From Candidatus Polarisedimenticolia bacterium (GTDB lineage Bacteria > Acidobacteriota > Polarisedimenticolia > Gp22-AA2 > AA152): a stretch of DNA of 42,662 nt. Positions 6,819 through 21,461 of the stretch are shown in pieces. The translations under genes were made by a program, and so were the position numbers. The stretch lies in contig DASYRE010000038.1 in NCBI GenBank assembly GCA_036004685.1, positions 1-42,662 on the forward strand. The letters run 5' to 3'. Each line of letters opens with the position of its first letter. Position 1 is the stretch's first letter. The notes under the pieces are model-generated. The model did no database searches, was not told the DNA's origin, and saw only the letters and a list, made by a program, of their open reading frames with translations.

Positions 6819-7979
6819 TCACGGATTCTCGGCCGGAGGCGGATTCTGTTCTGGATTCTGCTCCGGATTCTGCTCCGAGCGCTCGCGGTTCCCTTTCTTC
6901 TGGTAATGATGGATGACGCCCTTCCCCATGCGGCTCTTGCGAATTCCCGCCACCACGTCGCGGAGCCCTTCGTACACTTCCGGGTCGTTGATCAGCGCCC
7001 CGACGCTTCCCTGCCCCCGATCGATCTTGGCGGTGATCGATTCCAGGTGCGCCGTCGTCTTCTGCAGGTTCGAGAGGATCGCCTTCGCCGCCGCGTCGTC
7101 CTGAATGAGCCTTCCCGCCAGGCCTTCGCCCCCCTTGATCCGAGTGGTCACGTCCTTGAGGTCGGTGGTGGTCGCCAGGAGGCTGTCGAGGAGCTTCTCT
7201 CCCTTTCCCCCTTCCGCGAGCAGCTCGCCCGCCGCGCCGTGTCCCGACTCGAGCTTCTCGAGGACGCTGCGCAGGCGATCCAGGGACGACTCGAGGCTCG
7301 CCATCTGCCGCGACGCATATTCCTTGTTCATGAGGAGCTGGCCCGCCAATCCCTCCCCCTTCTCGATTCTTCCCGTGATTCGCTGGATCGACGTCACCGT
7401 GTCCTGGACCCCCTGGAGGCTCTCCTTTCCGAAATCGGGATTCCGAATCATCTCCGGAAGGATCCCGCCTCCTTTGTTCAGGGACATGAGCAACTCCCGG
7501 AGCTGGGCGGTGATGTCCTTGACGTCGTCCGCGATGCCCCGCCCCATCTCCGTCAGCTCCGCGAGGCCGGAAAGTCCGGGCTCGATCCGGCTCCCCGGGC
7601 GCAGGACGGGCCGATCGGGATCGCCGGGGGTGAGCTCGATGTAGCGCTCCTGCGAAACGTAGGAGAGGGACTTGAGCAGCGCCTGCGTTCCCTCCCGGAT
7701 GCGGTCGGCGTACGAGCGCTCCACCAGAATCGTCACGCGAATCTGCCGGTCTCCCAGATCGGGCGAAAAATCGACGCGGCTGACCGTCCCCACCCGGACG
7801 CCGACGAGCTGAACCGGCGAGCCCTCCGAAAGGCCCGAAACGTTCGGGAAAGCGGTCCAGTATTCCACCTTGCGGGTGAACAGACGAGATTCCTTGCCGA
7901 CGGCGAGGATCCCCACGATCAGGACGACCCCCGCGAGGAGCATCGTGAAGCCCACGGTCACTTCCTTCGAGCTAGGCAA
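6819..7979 (-). CDS. mlaD: MCE/MlaD-family lipid-transport substrate-binding protein
   Basis: 386 residues: one N-terminal transmembrane helix (about 8-27), an MCE domain (about 37-118, including GSPVQLVGVRVGTVSRVDF), then a long helical region rich in 'GEGLAGRL/GQGSVGALI'-like repeats, and a low-complexity tail of EQNP repeats. It is anchored in the inner membrane, and its MCE ring carries phospholipid between MlaE/MlaF and the outer membrane. It is longer than the roughly 180-residue E. coli MlaD and more like the longer MCE proteins with C-terminal helices. The TTG start at 7979 overlaps the mlaF stop by eight bases, with GGGGAG seven bases upstream. A tandem DNA repeat encodes the tail. 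Confidence 0.88.
   Translation of the reverse strand: MPSSKEVTVGFTMLLAGVVLIVGILAVGKESRLFTRKVEYWTAFPNVSGLSEGSPVQLVGVRVGTVSRVDFSPDLGDRQIRVTILVERSYADRIREGTQALLKSLSYVSQERYIELTPGDPDRPVLRPGSRIEPGLSGLAELTEMGRGIADDVKDITAQLRELLMSLNKGGGILPEMIRNPDFGKESLQGVQDTVTSIQRITGRIEKGEGLAGQLLMNKEYASRQMASLESSLDRLRSVLEKLESGHGAAGELLAEGGKGEKLLDSLLATTTDLKDVTTRIKGGEGLAGRLIQDDAAAKAILSNLQKTTAHLESITAKIDRGQGSVGALINDPEVYEGLRDVVAGIRKSRMGKGVIHHYQKKGNRERSEQNPEQNPEQNPPPAENP
6841..6876. repeat. Three tandem 12-base units within mlaD
   Basis: The plus strand reads ggattctgttct, ggattctgctcc, ggattctgctcc, with a single base-pair pattern change between units. On the minus strand each unit encodes one EQNP step of the MlaD C-terminal tail. 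Being an in-frame short tandem repeat, it could vary in copy number without breaking the gene. Confidence 0.8.
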
Positions 7980-8727
7980 GCTCCTGCTCCCCTCCGCCCG
8001 TCAGGAAGCTCCTCAGGCGCGCGTCCCGGGAACTCCGGGCCTCTTCGACGCTGCCCACGAACGCCATCTGTCCCTCGTCGAGAAAGGCGATCCGATCCCC
8101 GACCTGATAGGCGCTGGCGATGTCGTGGGTCACGACGATCGACGTCACCTGGAGCGTCCGCTGGAGGCTTCGGATCATCAGGTTGATGGCGTGGGCCGTC
8201 AGGGGATCGAGGCCCGTCGTCGGCTCGTCGTAGAGGATGCCCCGCGGCTCCAGGGCGATCGATCGGGCCAGGGCCACGCGCTTGCGCATCCCCCCGGAGA
8301 GATCGCTGGGCATCAGCCTTTCCACCGAGGGCTCGAGCTCCACGAGGGCGAGCTTCTCGCGGACCCGCTCGGCGATCTGCTCCTCCGACAAGTCGGTATG
8401 CTCCCGAAGCGCGTAGGCGACGTTCTCGAAGACGTCCATCGAGTCGAAGAGCGCCCCGCCCTGGAAGAGCATTCCGATCTTCTTCCGGACGGGCACGAGG
8501 GCCTCCTCGCTGAGCCCGCTGAGATCGGTTCCCTCGACCAGGACCCTTCCCCGGTCGGGCGACATCAACCCGATCGTATGACGGAGCAAAACCGATTTGC
8601 CCGAGCCGCTGCCGCCGAGAATCACCATGGTCTCGGCCTCCCGCACGCGCAGGTTCACGCCGCGCAGCACGGTCTTGGCTCCGAAGCTCTTGTGAAGGTC
8701 CTCGTAATCGATGAACGTTGCTTCCAT
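7972..8727 (-). CDS. mlaF: ABC transporter ATPase, MlaF type
   Basis: 251 residues. Walker A GGSGSGKS is at 38-45, Q-loop Q89, ABC signature LSGGM at 143-147, and Walker B ILYDE at 164-168 followed by the D-loop TGLDP. LSGGMRKRVALARSIALEP is the form typical of MlaF/Mkl ATPases of MCE transport systems. It energises lipid movement through the MlaE permease. It starts three bases after the mlaE stop and overlaps mlaD, so the order is mlaE-mlaF-mlaD. No mlaB (STAS) or mlaC gene is next to it. Confidence 0.93.
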   Translation of the reverse strand: MEATFIDYEDLHKSFGAKTVLRGVNLRVREAETMVILGGSGSGKSVLLRHTIGLMSPDRGRVLVEGTDLSGLSEEALVPVRKKIGMLFQGGALFDSMDVFENVAYALREHTDLSEEQIAERVREKLALVELEPSVERLMPSDLSGGMRKRVALARSIALEPRGILYDEPTTGLDPLTAHAINLMIRSLQRTLQVTSIVVTHDIASAYQVGDRIAFLDEGQMAFVGSVEEARSSRDARLRSFLTGGGEQELA

Positions 8728-8730
8728 AGC

Positions 8731-9483
8731 CTAGAACATCAGGAACAGCTTCGTGAGAAAGAAATCCGACACCAAGACGGAGATCGACGCGGCGACCACC
8801 GTCTGCGTGGTCGCCCGGCCCACCCCGTCCGCGCCTCCCGTGGCTCTCAAGCCGTTGTAGCAGGCGATGGCGGAGATGAAGAGCGCGAAGAAGAAAGTCT
8901 TGCCGATGCCGCTGAAAATGTCATGCACCTCGAGGGCCGAGCGCACGTGCTTCAAGTAGAACTCCGAAGTTTGGTTCAGCTCGCTGCTTGCGATGAGCAG
9001 GCCCCCCAGAATCCCCACGAAGTTCGCCAGGATGGTGAGGATCGGAAGCATGATCAGCGTGGCCAGGACCTTGGGGAAGACCAGCTTCTTGACGGGGTCC
9101 GCGGCCAGGGCGCGAATGGCGTCCACCTGCTCCGTGACCTTCATGCTGCCGATTTCGGCGGTGATCCCCGCTCCGACTCTGCCTCCGATCATCAATGCCG
9201 ACAGCACGGGCCCGAGCTCCCGCACGATCGACAACGCCACGACGTCCCCGATCAGGAACTTCCCGAACGCCACCCATGAGGCGGCGGTCTGCAACGCCAG
9301 GACCATCCCCGTGAACAGCGCGGTCGTGAGGACGATCGGCGCCGAGCCGACTCCGAGATGATGCAATTGCTCGATACAGATCCGCCATTCGCGAGGGCGG
9401 CGAAGTCCCTGGCGGAAGGTGTCCCTGACGAGCAGCCCTAGTCCCCCGACGTGTTCCAAGGCTCGGATCAGGAATTCGACCAA
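8731..9483 (-). CDS. mlaE: MlaE/YrbE-family lipid ABC permease
   Basis: 250-residue membrane protein of the MlaE family. It contains the conserved stretches LQTAASWVAFG, REL.PVLSALMIGGRVGAG, AEIGSMKVTEQVDAI and the helical C-terminus. Family members have an amphipathic N-terminal helix and about five membrane spans, and work as a dimer with MlaF. The start is a TTG at 9483 directly behind GGGGAGGCGGA, a very strong ribosome site, and an in-frame stop lies shortly upstream. It is the first gene after a promoter-like site at 9544-9572 and so heads the long minus-strand operon. Confidence 0.92.
   Translation of the reverse strand: MVEFLIRALEHVGGLGLLVRDTFRQGLRRPREWRICIEQLHHLGVGSAPIVLTTALFTGMVLALQTAASWVAFGKFLIGDVVALSIVRELGPVLSALMIGGRVGAGITAEIGSMKVTEQVDAIRALAADPVKKLVFPKVLATLIMLPILTILANFVGILGGLLIASSELNQTSEFYLKHVRSALEVHDIFSGIGKTFFFALFISAIACYNGLRATGGADGVGRATTQTVVAASISVLVSDFFLTKLFLMF

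Positions 9484-9568: not shown

Positions 9569-9572
<4 letters not shown>
9544..9572 (-). promoter_or_regulatory. Sigma-70-like promoter for the mla/polysaccharide operon
   Basis: Minus strand: TTGACT (9572-9567), then TTAAAC after a 17-base spacer or TTTAAA after 16, about 60 bases ahead of the mlaE start. The -35 overlaps the last codons of hyuB. The intergenic stretch is locally AT-rich compared with its surroundings. Confidence 0.5.
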
Positions 9573-11163
<1,591 letters not shown>

Positions 11164-11167
<4 letters not shown>

Positions 11168-13170
11168 GGTCTTGCAGCCCGGCGGCGCAGGTGGAGGAGG
11201 CCCATTCGATCCACCTCCAGCCAGTAATCCGGAGCCAGATACGTGGTCGCGCTGTACTCGGTGATGAGAGCCGGCCCGTGAAGACGGCGCCCCGCGGGGA
11301 GATCCTCACGGCGATGACGCGGCAGCGCTCCGGATCTTCGCAGCGGACCGGCCTCCGGGGCAACGCGCCGTGCCGATGCCGGGGACCGCGGGTGGGACGA
11401 GCGGGCCGTCGCGAGCCGAGGGGCCGGTGCCAAGGCCCGCACCCGCAGGTTGACCAGTTCCACGTCGTCGTCCCGGCGGTCGTATCCGAAGCGCTCGCCG
11501 TGCGCCCGATGGAAAGCCTCTCTCAGATCAGCCCTGACCGGAACGCTCAGCTCATGGGATTGGCCGCGGTATCGCAGGTCCGCTTCCCGTTCGAGGCGCA
11601 GAGAGGAGGCCGGGTGTCCGTCCCGCACGAGGGCTGCCACCGCTTCCTCTTCCAACGGTCCGAGCCAGCGCCTCAGCTCTCGCGCTTCGAGACCGGCAGC
11701 CCGGCCGATGACGGTGCGCGAGACTTCCCAAATCGGTGGGCTGGAGCACAGGCCGAACGCCGAGAAAGCACCCGGATCGCGAGGAATGACGATGCGCTCA
11801 ATTCCCAGCGCCGACGCCAGCGGGCAGGCCAGCAGCCCGCCGGCGCCTCCGAAAGCCAGCAGCGCGAAGCGCGCGGGGTGATGGCCCCGGCCCGCGGAGA
11901 TTCTCCGGACCGCCGTTTCGAGGGCGGCGTTGGCGACCTGCAGGATGCCATGCGCCGCCGCGCGCGCCGAAACGCCCAGGCGCTGGCCAATCCGACGGAG
12001 CGACCGCTCGGCCGCCGCCCGATCCAGGGGGATTTCGCCTCCCAACAGCCCCTCCTCGGGCAGGCGGCCCAGGAAGAAAAGGGCGTCGGTCACGGTCGCC
12101 TCCGTCCCGCCGCGACTGTAGCAGGCCGGCCCGGGATCGGCTCCGGCGCTCTCGGGACCGACGCGCAGCGCCCCTCCCGCGTCCACCCGCGCCTGGGAGC
12201 CGCCGCCCGCTCCGATGCTCTGAATATCGAGGCTGGGAATCCTCAGGGGAATCCGTTCAAGCACGGTGCCCTGAATCCGGGGCTCCCGCCCCTCGCACAC
12301 CGAGATGTCGGTCGAAGTTCCGCCCACGTCGAGCGTGATCAGGCGATCGATTCCGCAGGCGCGGCCCGCGCTCATGGCGGCGACGATGCCGCCGGCGGGA
12401 CCCGAGAGAACGGTCCGGACGGGTTGCGCGGCCGCGCGCCAGGCCGGAATCCATCCGCCGCTGCTCGACATGATCCGCAGGCGCCGGCTCCCCAGGCGTC
12501 GGCGGAGAGTCCCCAGGTAGGCCTCCATCGGCGGGACGAGCAGGGCGTTGGCCACCGTCGTGCAAGTGCGCTCATATTCGCGGAACTCGCCCGCCACCCG
12601 ATGGGACAGCGACAGATGCCAGCCCGAGCCGCGCAGCGCGCGCGCCACCTCCCTTTCGTGCCGGGGATTGGCGTAGGCATGGAGCAGGCAGACGGCGACC
12701 GACTCCACGTTCAGGCGTCGGAGCCGGGCGCGGAGACGCCGCAGAGAAGCCGGTTTCAGCCGCCGCAGGACTTCTCCTCGCGGACCGCAGCGCTCCGCGA
12801 CCCCGAGGCGAAAGCGATCGGCGAGCAGGGGCTCCCGCGCCGGAGGATCCAGGCGGAACAGGAGCGGCCGGTTCTGGCGGCCCAGCGCCAGGACGTCTTC
12901 GAATCCCGCGGTCGTGACCAGCGCGACTCTCCCGCCGCGCCTTTGAAGGAGCGCGTTGGTCGCCACGGTGGTCCCATGCACCACCCGGATCGACGAGCGC
13001 TCCAGGCCCAGGGCCGCGAGCCCCTGCAGCACGGCGCGCGACGGGTCTTCCGGCGTGGACCTCACCTTGAGCACCGCGACCGGGCCGCGTCGCGCCGCCA
13101 CCACGAGATCGGTGAAGGTTCCGCCGGTATCGACGCCCACGCGGAGCATCGGGTGCGGTTTCGAGGCCAT
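11164..13170 (-). CDS. hyuA: Hydantoinase A / 5-oxoprolinase alpha-type subunit
   Basis: 668 residues. The ASKHA-type phosphate-binding loop GVDTGGTFTD lies at 12-21, VHGTTVATNALLQR at about 64-77, SGPAGGIVAAM and LDVGGTSTDIS mid-protein, and GAGGGSQARVD. These are the standard features of the ATP-dependent HyuA/HydA family. It activates the substrate that HyuB cleaves; the length is normal for the family. The ATG at 13170 is preceded by GAGGG at four-base spacing, and a second ATG seven codons later is possible. The gene is divergent from plsC with only 62 bases between them. Confidence 0.9.
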
Positions 13171-13232: not shown

Positions 13233-13943
13233 ATGCTCAATCTCGTCCGCATTTCTCTGATCGTTCTGGTCACGGCCATCGCGGGATCGCTCGGGATATT
13301 GAGCTGCCTCGTGCTCCCTAGCGGGGACGGCGTGCTGGCCCTGGCGAGAGTGTGGGCGCGGCTCGTGCTGGGACTTTGCGGCGTGCGGGTCGTCGTCGAG
13401 GGACGCGACAAGATTCGCCCGCCGGGACCTTACGTCTTCTTGTCGAACCATCAGAGCCAGTTCGACATCCCGGCTGCAGTGCTCGCCATCCCCATCCAGT
13501 TCCGGATCCTCGCGAAGCAGGAGCTGTTCCACATCCCTATTTTCGGGTGGGCGCTTCGGCTGTCGGGATTCGTCGCGATCGATCGGCGCAACCGGGACAA
13601 GGCGATCGCCAGCCTGGACCGGGCGGCCGAGAGAATCCGGCGCGGGCGATCCCTGCTGATCTTCGCGGAGGGAACCCGCTCTCCCGACGGCAGACTCCTG
13701 CCTTTCAAGAAGGGGGCGTTCGTGCTCGCCATCCAGGCCGGTGTGCCGGTCGTTCCCCTGGCCATCCGGGGCAGCCGCGCGGTGCTTCCGAAAGGCAGTC
13801 TGTCCATCCGTCCCGGGATCATCACGGTGGTGGTGGGCGATCCGATCGATCCCCGGCCGTTCAGCGTGGATCAGAAGGAAGCTCTGATGACGCGGGTTCG
13901 ATCGGCGCTGGAGGCCGCGCTGGGGGCCGGCACGGCGGCCTAG
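13233..13943 (+). CDS. plsC: 1-acyl-sn-glycerol-3-phosphate acyltransferase
   Basis: 236 residues. It makes phosphatidic acid from lysophosphatidic acid at the inner membrane. An N-terminal hydrophobic helix (about 5-28) precedes the acyltransferase motifs: block I NHQSQFD at 72-78 with the catalytic His-Asp, a glycerol-phosphate binding region around FVAIDRRN, block III FAEGTRS at 144-150, and VPVVPLAIRG. The ATG has GGAG at five-base spacing. The TAG stop shares the bases CTAG with the stop of the oppositely oriented barrel gene. Acyl transfer to another lysophospholipid is possible. Confidence 0.9.
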   Translation: MLNLVRISLIVLVTAIAGSLGILSCLVLPSGDGVLALARVWARLVLGLCGVRVVVEGRDKIRPPGPYVFLSNHQSQFDIPAAVLAIPIQFRILAKQELFHIPIFGWALRLSGFVAIDRRNRDKAIASLDRAAERIRRGRSLLIFAEGTRSPDGRLLPFKKGAFVLAIQAGVPVVPLAIRGSRAVLPKGSLSIRPGIITVVVGDPIDPRPFSVDQKEALMTRVRSALEAALGAGTAA

Positions 13944-16900
13944 AAGAACTTGAGCAGGGTGACCTGGGCTTCCTGCCTGCCGGCGAGGCCGGGAATGTCC
14001 GACTTCACCGCGATTCCCCAATCGAATCGGAGCAGCGTGCTCCAGGGGCCCATCACGTTCCCGGCGATCCCGAACCCCCCGAAACTTTGATCGCATCCCA
14101 GACAGCTCACTTCGGAGGGAGCTGGGAGCGGGGGGGGCAAGCCGTTCAAGGTCGAGTCCCGGACTCTCGCGTAATCGAGCGTCCCCTCGAGGCGCAGCGC
14201 TTCGGCGAAATTGAACCCGTAAGTGATCGAAGCGAGGAGCGCGCGGTCGAACTTGACTCCGGATCCCGAAAACCCCCGGACCCGGTTGCCGAAGAACCCG
14301 AAGCTGAACTTGCTGAACCGATCCTGATTCTCCCCGGTGAGGTACTCGGCGCGCAGCGACAGCTTTTGGAACAAGGGAAGGATGAACTGCTTCGCCAGCA
14401 GGGCGCCGGCCTCCGAATAACTCTTCTGGGTCGGATCGAAATCGATCAACCGCGTGCCGACGGCCACCGACGCGGGATCGGTATCCCCCCAGGGACCCCA
14501 GCGCCCGCGGCGGTGCCGCTCCCAATGGGCCCGGGCGGTGACGCCCCAACGGTTGAACTCTCCGGACGCGCCGTAGCCAGCGATCGACGTATCCCCGGGA
14601 ACGCGGAAAGACTCGGTGTGCTTCCCACCTCCGAACTGCTCGAACTCCCACATCCCGATGAGCTTCAGCTTCAGGAAATTCCCCATCGGGACCCCGAGAT
14701 TCAGCGAAGCGCTCTGGGTGCGCTGGCGAACCTCTTCCTCCTCGAGCTTCCGATCCCCGAGGTAGTAGTTGTCCGTTCCGCTGAAGGCCACCCCGAGGAC
14801 GCTCGCGCCGGCGTCCAGACGGCTTCCCAGGAAACGCGGGCTCTGGATCGACGCCTGCAGCAGCGCCCCCGCAAAAAAGAAGTTGACCTGGCTGCCGGTG
14901 TTCTTGAAGTTGAAATCGAAGTAGTCGATCCCCGCGAGGGGCACGGGGAAGTCCAGGTCCTGCTCGTAGAACACCCCGACGGCCCCCAGAAGCGTCCGCT
15001 TGGTCAGCCCTTCCCGGACGACCCGCTCGCCCGAGCCGGTTCGGTCGAGGTAGCGGAAGCCCTTCTCCGTGTCGCGCAGCATCACGTGGGTCGATTGATG
15101 GGCCGCGGCGCGCTGCGCCTCGAAATCGGGCGCGTTGAGCGCGAAGTCGCTGAACTCGATCTCGCGCTGGACCACCAGGTTCACTCCGGAGATGTTCCAG
15201 ATCTGCTGTCCCACGATCCGCTGCAGGACCCAGAGCGGGCGCTCTCCGGAGCCCGGGGCCGGCCCGTAGTGATCGCGCTCGTCGTTGCTGGTCACGGGCG
15301 GCTCCAGGCCGGTCTGGACGGAGGCGATGCGGATCTTCGCGAAACTCTTCCGATCGATCCACACCTTTCCCTGGTAGAGGCTCTTTCCTGGGGTGACGGG
15401 CGTGAAGTCCAGGACGTAGCAGTCCCGGCCGTCCGCGGTGTCGGTCCCGGCGTAGCGGTAGGCATAATCTTTGTTGAGATTGATGTTCAGCGGCAGGGTG
15501 ATCACTTTTTCGGGCTGGATGAGCGGCAGGTCGGGGAGCTTCTTCCCGGTCCAGCGGACGCCGTTGAAAAGGAAGTCGGTCTGCTCCCATTCGCCGCCGG
15601 TCTTGGGGTCCCAATAGAAGTTGTTGAGCGTCGTCACGTCGACCGAGACGTCGGCGCTGGCGACCTTGTAGAGGTAGCGGATCTTCGCGGCCGCCCTCAG
15701 CGTGCGCAGCCGGCTGTCCTGGTCCGCCTGGAATTCCTGATGGTGCGCGATGATCTCCTCGGCGGTGATCTCGTGCTTGCCTCCCACGTCCACCGATTTC
15801 GGATTCCTGAGGTAGCCGGGCGTCGCGAACCGCTGGTAACGCAAGATCAGCGGCGTGGCGGCAAGCGGGACGGTCAATCGCGTGGTGTTGCTCTTCGCGT
15901 CGGGGGCGAGATCCGGCAGCGCCTTTTCGCTGTTCGCCAGCAAGTCGTCGAGGGCCGCGCCCGTCACGTCGGCGGTGTCGAGGAGGAGGCCCGCTTCGGA
16001 GGAGATCGGGGGGTCCTCCTTCGACCGATAGGCGAGGAGCACCTGAAAGGTCGAAGCGTCGAAGAACTTCCAGGCTTGCACCGCGGGCGCCCTTCCCGCC
16101 GCGGGGGCGCCGAAGCGTGTCTTGGAAGTCCCTTCGGGCGCCGGACCTACGGTGGGCGGGAAGAGTCGGCGCAGCAGGACGCACAAAAGCGACGCTTCCG
16201 GAGCGCCGGAAGCCTCGGGGCGAAGCTCGAAGAGCGTCAGTCTCGAGCCCCCGCTGAGGGCCCCGAGGTAGGTCTCGATCAAGGACGCCTCGCGAACCCG
16301 CGGGGCGCGCTGCGGCTCGGGAGCGGGCGCGGCGCTTCCCGCCGCCGGCCCTGGAGTTTCGGTCGCTACCGGCGAGGACGGAGGCGTCTCGTTCGTTGGG
16401 CTCGGCGCGAGTTGTTCTTCGGTTCCGGCTTCGGGAGGAACTGGCCCTGCCGGAGCCGCGGCCGGCGCTTCGGGAAGAGGCTGGGCCACCAGCCAGAGGG
16501 AGGCGGCCGGCAGGTGGCGCAGGAGCAGGGTCCCGGCCTGATCCAAGCCCGCAGCGGGGTCGATTCCTGCTTCGCCGCGGAGGGGAACGGCGTCCAGATA
16601 CGGACCGAGGTCCTCTTGCAGGATCTTCTCGAGCAGATCGAGCCGGCGGATTCCCACCGAGCCCAGCACGATGAGAGCTTCCGGGTCCGCTCCACGGATC
16701 TCCACCGCGCCGTTCTTGATCAAGAACGCGAATTCCCTTGGCCCCGCGCCCGAGCCCAGCGTTCCCGGCAGATCGGGATGGTCGCCGATCTCGTAGAAGC
16801 GAACCTTGCCTCGAAACGTCTCGGCCACCTTGCGGAGGAACGCGCGCCAGGCCGTCAGATACTCGGCCTGCGAGGGAAGCGGGAGCTCGGCGCCGCCATA

Positions 16901-17251
16901 GAGGGGATTCCCGCCGACGGGAGTCAGGATCACGTCGAAGCCGGCTTCCCGGAACCGGCCTACGGTCGACTCCAGCTCCTCGAAGCGGAAAACCCCGCGT
17001 TCGGTCTCGATGCGGCTCCACGAAAAATGAACCCGTGCGTAGAGCGGCTGGGCCCCGCGGGCCTCGACCTCCGCGGCCCGGATCGGCCCCGGGCGCTGCT
17101 CTCCCGGCTTGTCCAGATCGACCTCGTATCCGAGGCCGGTCTTCGGAGGCTGCCACTTAGGAATCTCCCCGGCGGCCCCGAGCTTCGGGGACCCAACCAA
17201 GGCGCCGAGGGCGAGCAGGATCGCGGACGGGATAATGAAAGGAAGGCGCAA
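13940..17251 (-). CDS. Large secreted protein: glycosidase-like domain, sorting-protein-like domain, C-terminal outer-membrane beta-barrel
   Basis: 1103 residues from a TTG at 17251 (GGAG nine bases upstream; a GTG at 17287 would add 12 residues). A signal peptide (about 1-28, ending LGAAGEIP) suggests export. Residues about 65-215 resemble the first half of a GH42/GH39-like TIM barrel (HFSWSRIETERGVFRFEEL, FDVILTPVGG), but the place of the usual NEP acid/base motif reads YEIGDHPD. A Pro/Ala/Glu-rich linker fills about 255-320. Residues about 490-740 resemble outer-membrane lipoprotein-sorting proteins (RDCYVLDFTPV, GKVWIDRKSFAKIRI). Residues about 750-1103 alternate polar and hydrophobic residues like a beta-barrel and end VTLLKFF, a C-terminal Phe as in BAM substrates. 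It follows ubiA by 77 bases. I do not recognise the whole architecture; a role in envelope glycan or lipid export is inference. Confidence 0.75.
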   Translation of the reverse strand: MRLPFIIPSAILLALGALVGSPKLGAAGEIPKWQPPKTGLGYEVDLDKPGEQRPGPIRAAEVEARGAQPLYARVHFSWSRIETERGVFRFEELESTVGRFREAGFDVILTPVGGNPLYGGAELPLPSQAEYLTAWRAFLRKVAETFRGKVRFYEIGDHPDLPGTLGSGAGPREFAFLIKNGAVEIRGADPEALIVLGSVGIRRLDLLEKILQEDLGPYLDAVPLRGEAGIDPAAGLDQAGTLLLRHLPAASLWLVAQPLPEAPAAAPAGPVPPEAGTEEQLAPSPTNETPPSSPVATETPGPAAGSAAPAPEPQRAPRVREASLIETYLGALSGGSRLTLFELRPEASGAPEASLLCVLLRRLFPPTVGPAPEGTSKTRFGAPAAGRAPAVQAWKFFDASTFQVLLAYRSKEDPPISSEAGLLLDTADVTGAALDDLLANSEKALPDLAPDAKSNTTRLTVPLAATPLILRYQRFATPGYLRNPKSVDVGGKHEITAEEIIAHHQEFQADQDSRLRTLRAAAKIRYLYKVASADVSVDVTTLNNFYWDPKTGGEWEQTDFLFNGVRWTGKKLPDLPLIQPEKVITLPLNINLNKDYAYRYAGTDTADGRDCYVLDFTPVTPGKSLYQGKVWIDRKSFAKIRIASVQTGLEPPVTSNDERDHYGPAPGSGERPLWVLQRIVGQQIWNISGVNLVVQREIEFSDFALNAPDFEAQRAAAHQSTHVMLRDTEKGFRYLDRTGSGERVVREGLTKRTLLGAVGVFYEQDLDFPVPLAGIDYFDFNFKNTGSQVNFFFAGALLQASIQSPRFLGSRLDAGASVLGVAFSGTDNYYLGDRKLEEEEVRQRTQSASLNLGVPMGNFLKLKLIGMWEFEQFGGGKHTESFRVPGDTSIAGYGASGEFNRWGVTARAHWERHRRGRWGPWGDTDPASVAVGTRLIDFDPTQKSYSEAGALLAKQFILPLFQKLSLRAEYLTGENQDRFSKFSFGFFGNRVRGFSGSGVKFDRALLASITYGFNFAEALRLEGTLDYARVRDSTLNGLPPPLPAPSEVSCLGCDQSFGGFGIAGNVMGPWSTLLRFDWGIAVKSDIPGLAGRQEAQVTLLKFF

Positions 17252-17328: not shown

Positions 17329-18285
17329 CTACCATCCGCGCACCGCGATCCCGAGCCATCTTTCCAGTGAGGGAAGGTGCAGCACCGAAAGGACGGATAT
17401 CGTCACGACGATCAGGATCGTCAGGAACATCAGCAGCGGGTCGCGATAGAGCTTCTCGGGGTTCTGCGCGACGCTCTCCTCCTGGTAGGCCAGATGCGTG
17501 TAGTACCCCAGGTAAATCATCAGCAGAGGACAGGCTATGATGTACTCGACATGGTACTTCACCAGGATTACCCCTACGAAAAACATGAAGCCCGAAGCGT
17601 AGGCCATCATGGCCGTGGCCAGGCGCTCCTCGGTGTAGTAGCGGAACGAGGAGCGATAGCGCGCCGCGCGCTCCGGGTCGCCGATGGAGCGGTACTCCGC
17701 GAAGCGCTTGGCAGCCATGAGATAGGCGCCGATGAGCCAGTAGGCCAGGAGGAAGGAAGAGGGCGGCAAGACGGACCCGCCGACGGCATACCACCCCAGC
17801 AGGAGGCGGATCGGGTTGTTGATCGCCTCCGAGAGAACGTCGAGATACAGCACCTCCTTCGTGCGGATTGGGGGAACGTTGTAGATCAGTCCCATGGTCC
17901 AGAGGGCGAGGAGAGAAACGAGGAGAGGCGTGGAGACGAGCGCGCCCAACAGCAGCCCCGCGGCGCCAAGCAGGGCCCACTCGGCGTACGCGAAAGGCAG
18001 ACGGACCCTTCCGGCGACGACGGGTCGATTCTTCTTGGAAGGGTGATGGCGGTCGGTTCCCGCGTCGAGAATTTCGTTGAGCACGTAATTGCTGGAAGCC
18101 ACCAGACAGGCGGACAGAATCGCGATGAAGGTGCCGAAGGCGTTCGAGGGGTTCCGGGTCGAGGGCTCCAGGAGCAGCGCGGCGGCGATCCCGGGCACGA
18201 TGAAGATGTTCTTGAACCAATGATCGATCCGTGCCAGCTCGACGTACGGGCGAAGTCCTTCGTGCCTGGTTCCGCCGGCCGTCAT
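17329..18285 (-). CDS. UbiA-family prenyltransferase, decaprenyl-phosphate phosphoribosyltransferase-like
   Basis: 318 residues with about eight to nine hydrophobic helices. The first Asp-rich motif is NEILDAGTDRHHPSKKNRP at 70-88, the NDxxDxxxD/HPxKxxRP form seen in DPPR synthases that attach phosphoribose to a polyprenyl phosphate. KRFAEYRSIG follows in the second loop region. The classical homologue works in arabinan synthesis, and related enzymes occur in some Gram-negative arabinose-containing glycans. No DprE1/DprE2-like epimerase is in the window. The ATG overlaps the methyltransferase stop (ATGA). Homogentisate or menaquinone prenyltransferase roles are less likely given the motif and neighbours. 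Confidence 0.8.
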   Translation of the reverse strand: MTAGGTRHEGLRPYVELARIDHWFKNIFIVPGIAAALLLEPSTRNPSNAFGTFIAILSACLVASSNYVLNEILDAGTDRHHPSKKNRPVVAGRVRLPFAYAEWALLGAAGLLLGALVSTPLLVSLLALWTMGLIYNVPPIRTKEVLYLDVLSEAINNPIRLLLGWYAVGGSVLPPSSFLLAYWLIGAYLMAAKRFAEYRSIGDPERAARYRSSFRYYTEERLATAMMAYASGFMFFVGVILVKYHVEYIIACPLLMIYLGYYTHLAYQEESVAQNPEKLYRDPLLMFLTILIVVTISVLSVLHLPSLERWLGIAVRGW

Positions 18286-19193
18286 CGCTGAGGCCCCTCC
18301 CCAATCTTCCGGGAATAGTAGGTCATCGAATCATGAAGGTTGACCGGGACGGTCCACGAGAAGATCGATCTTCCCCACGACGCGGCCGAGAGCTTCCGGC
18401 GCAACGGGCCCACCGGCAGATAACGCTCCAGACGCTCCGCCACGTAGCCGACCGAAAAGTACCACGTGTAACGCTCCTGGCGCTCCAAGGACAGCCGCGC
18501 GCTTTGCAGCGCCGAGCGCATCGTCTTGCGGTTGAAGTAGCAGACGTGCGCGACTCGATAGTGCCACCACCTCCGGCCGAGCAGGCGGGCAGCCAGACTC
18601 GAGGAATCGGGCGTGGTCACCACCAAGATGCCGCCGGGGTTCAGCGCCGCCGCCAAATTCCGGAGAAGCCCGAGGGGATCGGTGACATGCTCGATAACGT
18701 CGATGAGGGTGAGGATGTCGAAACGACGCCCCTGCAGCGCGGGGTGCGGATAGGACCCCTGCAGAAGCTCCACGCCCTCGCGGGCAGAGGCGATTTTCAC
18801 GGCCCAGGAGCTCGGCTCGACCCCGGTGGCGTCCAGGCCCAGCTCTCGGGCCGCGCGGCACAGCAGGCCGATCCCCGCGCCCACGTCCAGAACGGTACGG
18901 GCTCCGGGCGCCATCCTGAGACAACGCCTCAGGATGCGCCTGAACGGACGAATCCGTCCCTCGCTTCCCGCGCTGTAATCCGGATCCTCCAATTCCGCAT
19001 AGAGGCGGACGAGCTCCGAGCTGGGAAGCGGATCCGCGAAACGGAAGCCGCAGGCCTGGCATTCGACGATCCGGGCGGTCCTTCCGTAATGCGAGTCCGA
19101 TATCCTGAGATCGCCGCTGCGGATCTCGCCTTCCACCGTGGAGGGAAGGAACTCCCTCGAGCGCTCCGATCCGCAAAGCCAGCACCTGCTCAC
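18282..19193 (-). CDS. SAM-dependent methyltransferase with N-terminal zinc ribbon
   Basis: 303 residues from a GTG at 19193 preceded by GGGAGGA. An N-terminal CxxC pair (SRCWLCGSE) and a second one (VECQACGFRF) form a probable zinc ribbon, followed by a class I Rossmann methyltransferase: VLDVGAGIGLLCRAA, GVEPS, LTLIDVIEHVTDP, NPGGILVVTTPD. This layout is common among methyltransferases in polysaccharide and surface-glycan clusters. It is the first gene of a three-gene minus-strand operon with ubiA (ATGA overlap) and the barrel protein. The acceptor is unknown; glycan or lipid-linked sugar methylation is inferred from context. Confidence 0.85.
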   Translation of the reverse strand: MSRCWLCGSERSREFLPSTVEGEIRSGDLRISDSHYGRTARIVECQACGFRFADPLPSSELVRLYAELEDPDYSAGSEGRIRPFRRILRRCLRMAPGARTVLDVGAGIGLLCRAARELGLDATGVEPSSWAVKIASAREGVELLQGSYPHPALQGRRFDILTLIDVIEHVTDPLGLLRNLAAALNPGGILVVTTPDSSSLAARLLGRRWWHYRVAHVCYFNRKTMRSALQSARLSLERQERYTWYFSVGYVAERLERYLPVGPLRRKLSAASWGRSIFSWTVPVNLHDSMTYYSRKIGEGPQR

Positions 19194-19226
19194 GCGTCCT
19201 CCCGGGCGCGGCGCATTATGCACCGT

Positions 19227-19256
19227 TTGATTCCCCCGCGCACCTGTTTCTATAAT
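19227..19256 (+). promoter_or_regulatory. Sigma-70-like promoter for the GT39-like gene
   Basis: TTGATT (19227-19232), 18-base spacer, consensus TATAAT (19251-19256), 49 bases before the ATG at 19306. It lies in the 112-base divergent region shared with the methyltransferase operon. On the opposite strand CATAAT (19220-19215) could be a weak -10 for that operon, with no convincing -35. Confidence 0.55.
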
Positions 19257-19305
19257 TCCGCGAAGTCCCGCCGGGCGGGCGAGCCACCCACGAGGCATTC
19301 GACCG

Positions 19306-20610
19306 ATGACGAGATCGGATAACACGTCCGCAGGCCGCCTGCTGCGCGCCTTCTATGTCGCGGCCTTAGTACTCTGCATTCTGCTTCGCGCGCTCTACGT
19401 GGTCATGTCCGATGCCTCCAGCCTCTACACCCAGTGGTCCACGGCCAGAGATGCGGAGGTCTACGATCGATTCGGCTGGAATCTCGCCGTTCACGGAACT
19501 CTCGGAGTCGGAAATCAGCCCAGTGGATTCGCCATGCCCGCCTACCCTCTTTTTCTGGCGGCGATCTACCGCGTCGCGGGCCACCTTCCCGGAGCGGCGC
19601 GCTGGATTCAGATCCTTCTCGGCGTCGTCACGATCGTCGCGCTGGGCCAGTTCGCCCGGATCCTGGGAGGCCCTCGCGCCAGGGCGCTCGCCGTGGCCAT
19701 CGGCGCGGTCTATCCGTTCTTCATCTATTTCACCGGGGAAATCCTGACCGAGACCCTCTTCCTGGCCGCGTTCTCCGGAATGATTCTGACCGCCGCACGT
19801 CTGGGGGAGCGCGGACGCCTCCTCGACGGCGTCTTTCACGGATTGTGCCTTGCCCTGGCCTTCCTGACTCGCCCGGTCGGCCTTTTCCTGGAGCCGGCGG
19901 CACTCATCCTGGCCCGGCCGTGGAGCCCGGTGAACCGCCGATCCCGACTCGCCGGATTGGGGATCGGCTTCCTGCTCTTCGGCCTGGCCTGGGGGGGCTG
20001 GATTGCGCGCAACCGATCGGCGCTCGGCGAGACGGTTCTGCTCGATACGCACTCCGGCATGGCGCTATATCTGGGCCACCTCGAGTCGATCGGGGTGAGC
20101 CAGGAGGAAATCGGGCACCGACTCTGGTATGGGCACAGGGACATTGCTCGGGGCACTCTGCCGGGAGGCCCTGCCGGCGAGCTCGAGGCGAACCGGCGGG
20201 CCGGTGAGCTCGCGCGGCAGAGCATTCGCGCCGATCCCGGTCGGTTCCTGCGCAGCGTCGCCCGCAACATCGCGAGGATTTGGCTGCACCTCGACTTTTC
20301 CGAGGTGGGCTCTCCGACCGGCACGGTGGGGCTCGCGACCTTCGTGGGATGGGCCTCCTATGCGCCGGTCCTATTTCTGGCCGGCGCCGGCCTGGTTCGG
20401 CTGAGGCGCCTCCGGAGCCACGCTTTCACGGCGATCTTGGCGCTCTTCGCCACCAGCTCGCTGATACACGGAATCTTCATCGGCGGCCAGCGTTACCGGG
20501 TGGGGACCGTGGATCCCCTCCTGATCGTCCTCGCCGCCGTGGCGCTCGACGAGTGGCTCGGGCGATTTCCGCGAATCCGCCGATTGACTGGCGCGGAGAA
20601 CCCCTCCTAA
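19306..20610 (+). CDS. GT39-like (dolichyl-phosphate-mannose-protein mannosyltransferase family) membrane glycosyltransferase
   Basis: 434 residues with some ten to twelve hydrophobic segments. The first extracytoplasmic loop carries TARDAEVYDRFGWNLAVHG, matching the acidic-residue loop of GT-C enzymes of the PMT/ArnT group, followed by FAMPAYPLFLAAIYR. Such enzymes take sugars from polyprenyl-phosphate donors on the periplasmic side and place them on proteins, lipids or glycans. The ATG at 19306 follows a promoter at 19227-19256. The C-terminal half is shorter than in ArnT, with no large periplasmic domain. A polyprenyl-phosphate sugar made by the GT2 or UbiA enzymes of this window would be a suitable donor, which is inference. 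Confidence 0.75.
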   Translation: MTRSDNTSAGRLLRAFYVAALVLCILLRALYVVMSDASSLYTQWSTARDAEVYDRFGWNLAVHGTLGVGNQPSGFAMPAYPLFLAAIYRVAGHLPGAARWIQILLGVVTIVALGQFARILGGPRARALAVAIGAVYPFFIYFTGEILTETLFLAAFSGMILTAARLGERGRLLDGVFHGLCLALAFLTRPVGLFLEPAALILARPWSPVNRRSRLAGLGIGFLLFGLAWGGWIARNRSALGETVLLDTHSGMALYLGHLESIGVSQEEIGHRLWYGHRDIARGTLPGGPAGELEANRRAGELARQSIRADPGRFLRSVARNIARIWLHLDFSEVGSPTGTVGLATFVGWASYAPVLFLAGAGLVRLRRLRSHAFTAILALFATSSLIHGIFIGGQRYRVGTVDPLLIVLAAVALDEWLGRFPRIRRLTGAENPS

Positions 20611-20642: not shown

Positions 20643-21461
20643 TTGGGCAACCCGGCCTTGACCCCCACGCCGATGGTCACCTTGACCACCGATTTTGGAG
20701 ACCGGGATCATTACGTCGCCTCCATGAAGGGGGCTCTCCTCTCGCTGAACCCTTCGCTGAAAATCATCGATATCACGCACCAGATCGCGCCGCACCAGAT
20801 CGCCGAGGCGGCGTTCACTTTGGGCTGCGCCGTGCCGACGTTTCCGGACGGAACCATCCATATCGTGGTCGTGGATCCCGGCGTCGGAACCCGGCGCCGC
20901 CTCCTTCTCGCGAGCACCGAGCGTCATTACTTCCTGGCCCCCGACAACGGAACGCTCGGGCTGGTTTTCGACGCCGAGCCGGCCCTCCAGGTGGTGCAAC
21001 TCACCCAGGCCCGCTATTTCCGCCAGGACGTCAGTTCCACCTTCCACGGCCGGGACATTCTCGCCCCGGTGGCCGCTCACCTTTCCCTCGGCACCGACAT
21101 GAGCCAGTTCGGCGATCCGGTCCAGGATTGGATGCCTTGCGCCTTCTCCGCTCCGGTCGGCCCGGTCGCGGGTAGGCTGGGGCTCAAGGTTCTGGCCGTG
21201 GACCGGTTCGGAAACGTGATTCTCAACCTCAAGCGGCGCGCCTACCGGGAGGCGGGGGGAAGACCCGCGCCCGGGGCCCTCACGCTGGAAATCGGCGGGC
21301 GGACCATCCGGCGCCTCCTCCTCACCTACGACGAGGCGGACGACGGCGAGCCGTTCGCGCTTTTCAACAGCTGCGACTATCTTGAAATCGCCGCCCGCCA
21401 AGGCTCGGCGGCGGCCGTTCTCGGAGTGCTCGCCGGGCATCCCGCCACTGTCGTGCTTTGA
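20643..21461 (+). CDS. SAM hydroxide adenosyltransferase (DUF62, SAM-dependent chlorinase/fluorinase family)
   Basis: 272 residues. It hydrolyses S-adenosylmethionine to adenosine and methionine in characterised family members. Motifs are TLTTDFGDRDHYVASMKG near the N-terminus, IVVVDPGVGTRRR, APDNGTLG, STFHGRDILAPVAAHL and VDRFGNVILNL, covering the SAM-binding trimer-interface residues and the Asp-Arg-His set. It lacks features of the halogenase loop as far as can be judged by eye. I chose the TTG at 20643 because GGAGGA lies just upstream. The ATG at 20673, where most homologues begin, has no ribosome site. It follows the GT39-like gene by 32 bases. Confidence 0.88.
   Translation: MGNPALTPTPMVTLTTDFGDRDHYVASMKGALLSLNPSLKIIDITHQIAPHQIAEAAFTLGCAVPTFPDGTIHIVVVDPGVGTRRRLLLASTERHYFLAPDNGTLGLVFDAEPALQVVQLTQARYFRQDVSSTFHGRDILAPVAAHLSLGTDMSQFGDPVQDWMPCAFSAPVGPVAGRLGLKVLAVDRFGNVILNLKRRAYREAGGRPAPGALTLEIGGRTIRRLLLTYDEADDGEPFALFNSCDYLEIAARQGSAAAVLGVLAGHPATVVL

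Follow-up and report, generated by a model that had tools for sequence, protein, structure and literature searches.

How does a diderm bacterium that possesses the lipid transporter MlaEFD exchange lipids with its outer membrane when MlaA and MlaC are missing? The question is raised by a stretch of 42,662 nucleotides (contig DASYRE010000038.1; "the window") from a Candidatus Polarisedimenticolia bacterium of the phylum Acidobacteriota, which carries mlaE, mlaF and mlaD as well as a gene for an envelope protein of 1103 residues. Most diderm bacteria have MlaEFD and neither MlaA nor MlaC, most of the long MlaD proteins are barrel-less and without a known outer-membrane partner, and in Veillonella and some others a barrel forms part of the long MlaD itself, which reaches from one membrane to the other (PMC10665443). 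We propose, at a probability of roughly 0.4, that the 1103-residue protein might be the outer-membrane end of MlaEFD lipid transport in Acidobacteriota without MlaA and MlaC. Slightly more tentative is the suggestion that its Omp85 barrel and built-in LolA-like lipid acceptor pair with a conserved docking motif at the tip of a barrel-less MlaD and, in much of the phylum, take over from MlaA/MlaC or from a barrel fused to MlaD.

An AlphaFold2 model of the protein, obtained from 34 homologues, had a mean predicted local distance difference test score (pLDDT) of 83.8 and a predicted template modelling score of 0.79. It revealed a pseudo-GH39 domain, a LolA-like domain and an Omp85-like barrel, in this order in one protein, and this architecture is well supported. 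An earlier note on this DNA, made from the sequence, had called for structure prediction and fold search for a TIM-like N-terminus and a membrane barrel, and both were found. Its impression that the domain order lies outside the standard families was also borne out, no family with such an order being named in the family libraries searched; the literature searched contained no paper on DUF5686 or on Omp85-glycosidase fusions. The parts of the gene are as follows.

13940-17251, minus strand: full pseudo-GH39 / LolA-like / Omp85-like gene (1103 amino acids, TTG start, TAG stop)
17168-17251, minus strand: predicted Sec signal peptide, residues 1-28 (hydrophobic N-terminus in the sequence; N-termini of homologues similar)
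15830-17146, minus strand: pseudo-GH39 domain, residues 36-474 (PslG profile and fold match)
16772-16795, minus strand: YEIGDHPD, residues 153-160, at the acid/base motif of glycoside hydrolases (alignment to PslG; family counts)
16307-16480, minus strand: Pro/Ala-rich disordered insertion, residues 258-315 (pLDDT <60; missing from most homologues)
15008-15799, minus strand: LolA-like domain, residues 485-748, the most conserved part (Pfam and fold matches)
13943-14998, minus strand: Omp85-like 16-strand barrel, residues 752-1103, with terminal Phe (VIA and strand count)
14270-14284, minus strand: RVRGF, residues 990-994, L6-like Omp85 signature (between strands 11 and 12)

The window is G+C-rich and contains long overlapping frames on both strands. 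The frame at 13940-17251 is the coding one because sister genomes hold full-length homologues with 56-61% identity and homologues are present in 42 of 60 relatives. Its translation confirmed the open reading frame, the hydrophobic, signal-like N-terminus and the C-terminal Phe described before, and an SD-like (Shine-Dalgarno-like) GGAGAG precedes the TTG start at 17251. A profile search, also advised in the earlier note, recovered the family in 44/60 relatives, a few weak partial matches among them; when contigs were scanned, a nine-sequence alignment retrieved homologues and a single-protein query retrieved none. This GH39-LolA-Omp85 family is carried by 37 of the 41 genomes of the window's class and by all 24 class genomes with completeness of at least 90% and contamination of at most 5%. 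Database relatives are nearly all from Acidobacteriota (Ca. Polarisedimenticola, Thermoanaerobaculia, Holophagales, Sulfidibacter, Mor1), and the family spans much of this phylum. A cultured species, Sulfidibacter corallicola (strain M133), has a homologue as well (L139). Second, more diverged copies, with no mla genes linked, occur at loci L051, L052, L054, L055 and L056 in genomes G007, G018, G022, G009 and G006.

Mean column identity amounted to 52% for the LolA-like domain, 42% for the barrel and 33% for the glycosidase domain, the last figure being derived from 23 closer sequences. In the lineage of taxonomic family f32, proteins of 833-853 amino acids keep LolA and barrel, and their N-terminal region is shorter and different. 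Since the glycosidase part is the least conserved and is replaced in the f32 lineage, the LolA-like domain and the Omp85 barrel form the core of the family. The 833-853-residue homologues are those at L256-L258, and f32 is possibly Holophagaceae.

The LolA-like nature of residues 485-748, recognized earlier as a lipoprotein-sorting-like region, was established both by Pfam, where LolA_like matches 33 of the 34 family members, and by fold search. Folded alone (pLDDT 85.5), these residues form an open beta-barrel with helices as in the LolA-like superfamily, and their top fold matches belong to the LolA/LolB superfamily (Foldseek E value 2e-8), with VIA Z scores of 11.4 (3bk5), 11.0 (LolA3) and 10.8 (DUF1329, 4z48). 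The fold and a weak sequence match are shared with LolA/LolB, PF17131, DUF1329 and P. gingivalis LolA3, but instead of forming a soluble or lipid-anchored carrier, the present domain is built into a membrane protein. DUF5686 (PF18939) was considered as parent family and rejected, as the only matches were below the curated cut-off and the likeness was confined to the LolA-like region.

A LolA/LolB fold would also suit a lipoprotein acceptor and insertase, in which the LolA-like domain would accept lipidated proteins from LolA and the barrel would insert or flip them, replacing LolB. LolB was indeed absent from all 60 relatives. In Borrelia, moreover, a POTRA-less Omp85 barrel, BBJ25, is found beside LolA/LolCDE-like genes and has been proposed to serve a non-polar ligand (PMC13078400), although there the Omp85 and LolA-like proteins are separate, stand beside a LolCDE-like ABC transporter and come without a pseudo-glycosidase. 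However, we noticed no lol genes in the conserved neighbourhood of our family, many LolB-less bacteria manage on LolA alone, and the genomic association is with mlaEFD. We consider the insertase explanation unlikely.

As the earlier note had expected, the C-terminal region is an outer-membrane barrel; it has 16 strands (residues 752-1101 in the AlphaFold2 strand list), and BamA, TamA and CdiB are its closest folds (VIA Z 22 for BamA, entries 8xnb and 9ccg, and for CdiB). The L6-type (V/L)xG(F/Y) motif, VRGF in the window protein, shows Gly in 34/34, F/Y in 34/34 and Arg in 19/34 members. The equivalent of the strand-13 FxDxG motif is degenerate, with D/E in 28/34 and A/G two residues on in 34/34. 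Together with the 16 strands and the terminal Phe, the L6-like motif is shared with the Omp85/TpsB superfamily (BamA, TamA, FhaC/CdiB), and the strand-13 D/E-x-(A/G) may be a further common feature. The Omp85 likeness was found by fold comparison only: the barrel sequence alone gave no meaningful match against the PDB, and the 1103-residue protein gave no significant match to PF01103. Nor does this protein contain a POTRA domain; the LolA-like domain lies in its position. POTRA domains are typical of Omp85 proteins but not universal, and POTRA-less subfamilies are known. By fold and motif, the protein belongs to the Omp85 superfamily, as a member without POTRA whose periplasmic part would instead be made up of a LolA-like lipid-carrier domain and an apparently dead GH39 domain. 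As far as the portion of a 2014 survey used here extends, Omp85 types with POTRA, WD40, patatin, metalloprotease, lipoprotein or no N-terminus are described, and the pseudo-GH39/LolA-like arrangement is not among its ten subfamilies (PMC4104836). A close parallel is PlpD of P. aeruginosa, an Omp85 protein that affects phospholipid levels and is linked to outer-membrane lipid homeostasis (PMC11116518). Both proteins consist of an enzyme fold, a periplasmic linker domain and then an Omp85 barrel, but PlpD has patatin and POTRA where the window protein has a seemingly dead enzyme and a LolA fold.

The closeness of the barrel to BamA, TamA and CdiB might indicate a TamA/BamA-type factor for assembly or translocation of outer-membrane proteins, in which the LolA-like domain would handle unfolded barrels in place of POTRA; assembly is the usual Omp85 role (PMC4104836). 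Against this stand the missing POTRA domain, the separate PF01103 Omp85 genes present in the window genome, and the fact that LolA folds bind acyl chains and not unfolded strands. An assembly role appears still less likely than lipoprotein insertion.

What connects the family with lipid transport is its genomic context. Among the 60 relatives, MlaE was detected in 58, MlaA in none, MlaC in two and LolB, as mentioned, in none; the 1103-residue protein itself has no MlaA or MlaC Pfam match. Downstream of the family gene, a convergent PlsC acyltransferase gene followed by mlaE-mlaF-mlaD is conserved in the class, and this conserved context, PlsC plus MlaEFD, is one of lipid transport. In the window these genes are located as follows.

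13233-13943, plus strand: PlsC-type acyltransferase, convergent, class-conserved neighbour (PF01553, 6.5e-36)
8731-9483, minus strand: MlaE permease (PF02405, 2.2e-73)
7972-8727, minus strand: MlaF ATPase (PF00005, 3.3e-30)
6819-7979, minus strand: long MlaD, 386 amino acids (PF02470, 1.1e-18)
6891-6992, minus strand: conserved C-terminal motif of the barrel-less MlaD type, INDPEVYEGLRDVVAGIRKSRMGKGVIHHYQKKG (profile from 7 seeds)

Of the 26 class genomes inspected (30 genomes overall), 18 have mlaE within 16 kb downstream of the family gene and on its strand, at distances of 1.0-14.7 kb, and the linkage spans several taxonomic families with intergenic distances of 1-15 kb. The MlaD of the window has a transmembrane segment, one MCE domain and long helical repeats and, by inspection, no C-terminal barrel. 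Three types of MlaD tail were distinguished by inspection: one is beta-barrel-like, one ends in KKYLxxKxSIF, and the third carries INDPxVYxxLxDVVxGIxxSRxxxxxIRxYxKKG followed by disorder and was recognized with a profile built from seven of its sequences. Wherever mlaD is intact in the class, this INDP-motif profile matches, with G025 as the one exception. Outside the class, within the 60-genome set, the INDP-motif MlaD was found in 4/4 family-bearing versus 1/13 family-lacking complete genomes (the one being G052; Fisher p 0.002, kinship ignored), and in further family-bearing genomes it was intact in 22/27 and split in one. Over 198 Acidobacteriota genomes, MlaD matches extending as far as the motif were present in 29 of the 33 genomes that lie outside the class and carry the family, versus 4 of ~142 others, by hand count among the matches listed, which extend to an E value of ~3e-26, and with the 15-genome f32 group, whose homologues are diverged, counted among the others. 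With kinship ignored, Fisher's test for this comparison gives p 1e-24 when genomes are counted and p 2e-8 when taxonomic families are, the number of families being approximate. Also, in G003 and G026, which have two mlaE each, the family-linked mlaE goes with the INDP-motif, barrel-less MlaD type. Acidobacteriota MlaD proteins with beta-barrel-like, Veillonella-type tails (L151, L152, L153, L155, L162, L167, L168, L169) are mostly from genomes without the family. The MlaEFD system of Veillonella likewise lacks MlaA and MlaC and has a long MlaD (PMC10665443); in that system MlaD and barrel are one protein, whereas for the barrel-less MlaD of the window we propose a separate protein in the outer membrane. 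Because it combines a periplasmic lipid-carrier fold with an Omp85 barrel in genomes with a barrel-less MlaD, the family fits the gap left by the outer-membrane partner.

Several points weigh against the assignment to MlaEFD. LolA folds carry lipoproteins too, and Omp85 barrels usually handle proteins. As a convergent plsC lies between them, the family gene and mlaE are not one operon. Linkage to mla was not seen outside the window's class, where the family gene is accompanied by recA, murB, lipid kinase (DAGK/YegS) or DUF4388 genes. INDP-motif MlaD occurs without the family in G052, G134, G187 and G242, a diverged family copy predicted for G052 was not found by profile search, and a few genomes, including G062-G064 and G068, have the family without INDP-motif MlaD. 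The co-occurrence of family and MlaD type could also be due to joint vertical inheritance. Taken further, the Mla link would be inherited synteny and shared ancestry only and the protein would have an unrelated envelope role as channel or receptor, which would agree with a linkage limited to one class and with genomes that hold just one of the two partners. Such an explanation would have to account for a linkage that holds at varying distances (1-15 kb) in a number of taxonomic families and that, in two-copy genomes, is to the same MlaD type, and we rate it a little below protein assembly.

Further features of the neighbourhood were observed. Upstream and divergent, thiolase, acyl-CoA dehydrogenase and SAM hydroxide adenosyltransferase genes are conserved in the class; the last, at 20700-21461 (plus strand) in the window, is divergent upstream of the family gene in many class genomes. 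In the taxonomic family of the window, plsC and mlaE are separated by an inserted HyuA/HyuB pair (caprolactamase/acetophenone carboxylase-like; 9569-13170, minus strand), and such a pair is also located downstream of the family gene in L037. In one clade of Thermoanaerobaculia, a divergent DAGK/YegS gene lies ~2.3 kb upstream of the family gene at 12 loci, which are given here.

DAGK/YegS-linked loci: L087, L088, L091, L092, L094, L095, L108, L111, L114, L117, L120, L134

The N-terminal domain had been described as a half barrel like those of GH42/GH39 enzymes. The GH39-like fold stands, but in the model residues 36-474 form a complete (beta/alpha)8 TIM barrel followed by a C-terminal beta-sandwich. 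The best structural match is the GH39 endoglycosidase PslG (9g17; VIA Z 28.1, 357 residues aligned, root-mean-square deviation 4.1), and sequence searches led to PslG as well (hmmsearch E value 2.4e-7; profile E value 2.5e-8 in another search). The Pro/Ala stretch, taken previously for a linker between domains, is instead a disordered insertion inside the TIM barrel that directly follows strand 7 and is confined to the window protein and its nearest sisters. YEIGDHPD was correctly placed at the NEP-type motif: PslG WNEPN aligns with IGDHPD, and His158 occupies the position of the acid/base Glu, which in GH39 enzymes follows an Asn at strand 4. The catalytic residues of PslG are E165 and E276; columns were assigned from the PslG alignment and general features of GH39, the strand-7 column by motif. 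Among ~90 aligned homologues, the acid/base column has one credible Glu, in L069 (WDEPN), further ones in L064 and L124 looking misaligned; the nucleophile position at the end of strand 7 is Ala256 in the window protein and Glu in L036 only, and none of the homologues has both catalytic Glu. Judged from these residues, the GH39 domain is catalytically dead, so that it would differ from PslG, whose fold it shares over the whole domain, by loss of the catalytic Glu and by fusion to an outer-membrane barrel. L069 (8889-12065), from a metagenome-assembled genome labelled Rokuibacteriota, keeps the acid/base Glu and not that of strand 7; it may be an intermediate in active-site loss or a mis-binned Acidobacteriota contig.

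The least likely alternative, and a very improbable one, is the earlier proposal of glycan or glycolipid export or anchoring, in which the dead glycosidase would bind a surface glycan whose synthesis involves UbiA and the methyltransferase: PslG is an exopolysaccharide enzyme and the two genes are indeed located directly upstream in the same orientation (77 bp in the window), but they are peculiar to the window species, tblastn placed UbiA, methyltransferase and PMT in the vicinity of 0/111 homologous loci, and the glycosidase domain is the one least conserved and replaced in the f32 lineage. Because of this absence, the three genes represent an insertion in the window species. UbiA, with a DPPR-synthase-like motif (NEILDAGTDRHHPSKKNRP), and the methyltransferase (17329-18285 and 18282-19325, minus strand) lie between the SAM hydroxide adenosyltransferase gene and the 1103-residue protein's gene in the window species only, and with PMT (19306-20610) they are possibly a small glycolipid cassette.

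If the protein is the outer-membrane end of MlaEFD transport, a hexamer of the long barrel-less MlaD would carry a phospholipid or similar acyl lipid over the periplasm. At the conserved distal tip of MlaD, acyl chains would then pass to or from the LolA-like domain, and the Omp85 barrel would allow lipid exchange by opening the outer membrane or making it thinner. The pseudo-glycosidase might be a spacer or an anchor that binds peptidoglycan or another glycan. We infer in each case the docking to MlaD, the lipid substrate, the direction of transport and the role of the dead enzyme.

The GH39-LolA-Omp85 family extends the Omp85 superfamily by an architecture that does without POTRA and would be an example of a pseudo-enzyme carried as a part of the envelope. 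It provides a concrete, phylum-wide candidate for the site where lipids may enter or leave the outer membrane of bacteria without MlaA and MlaC.

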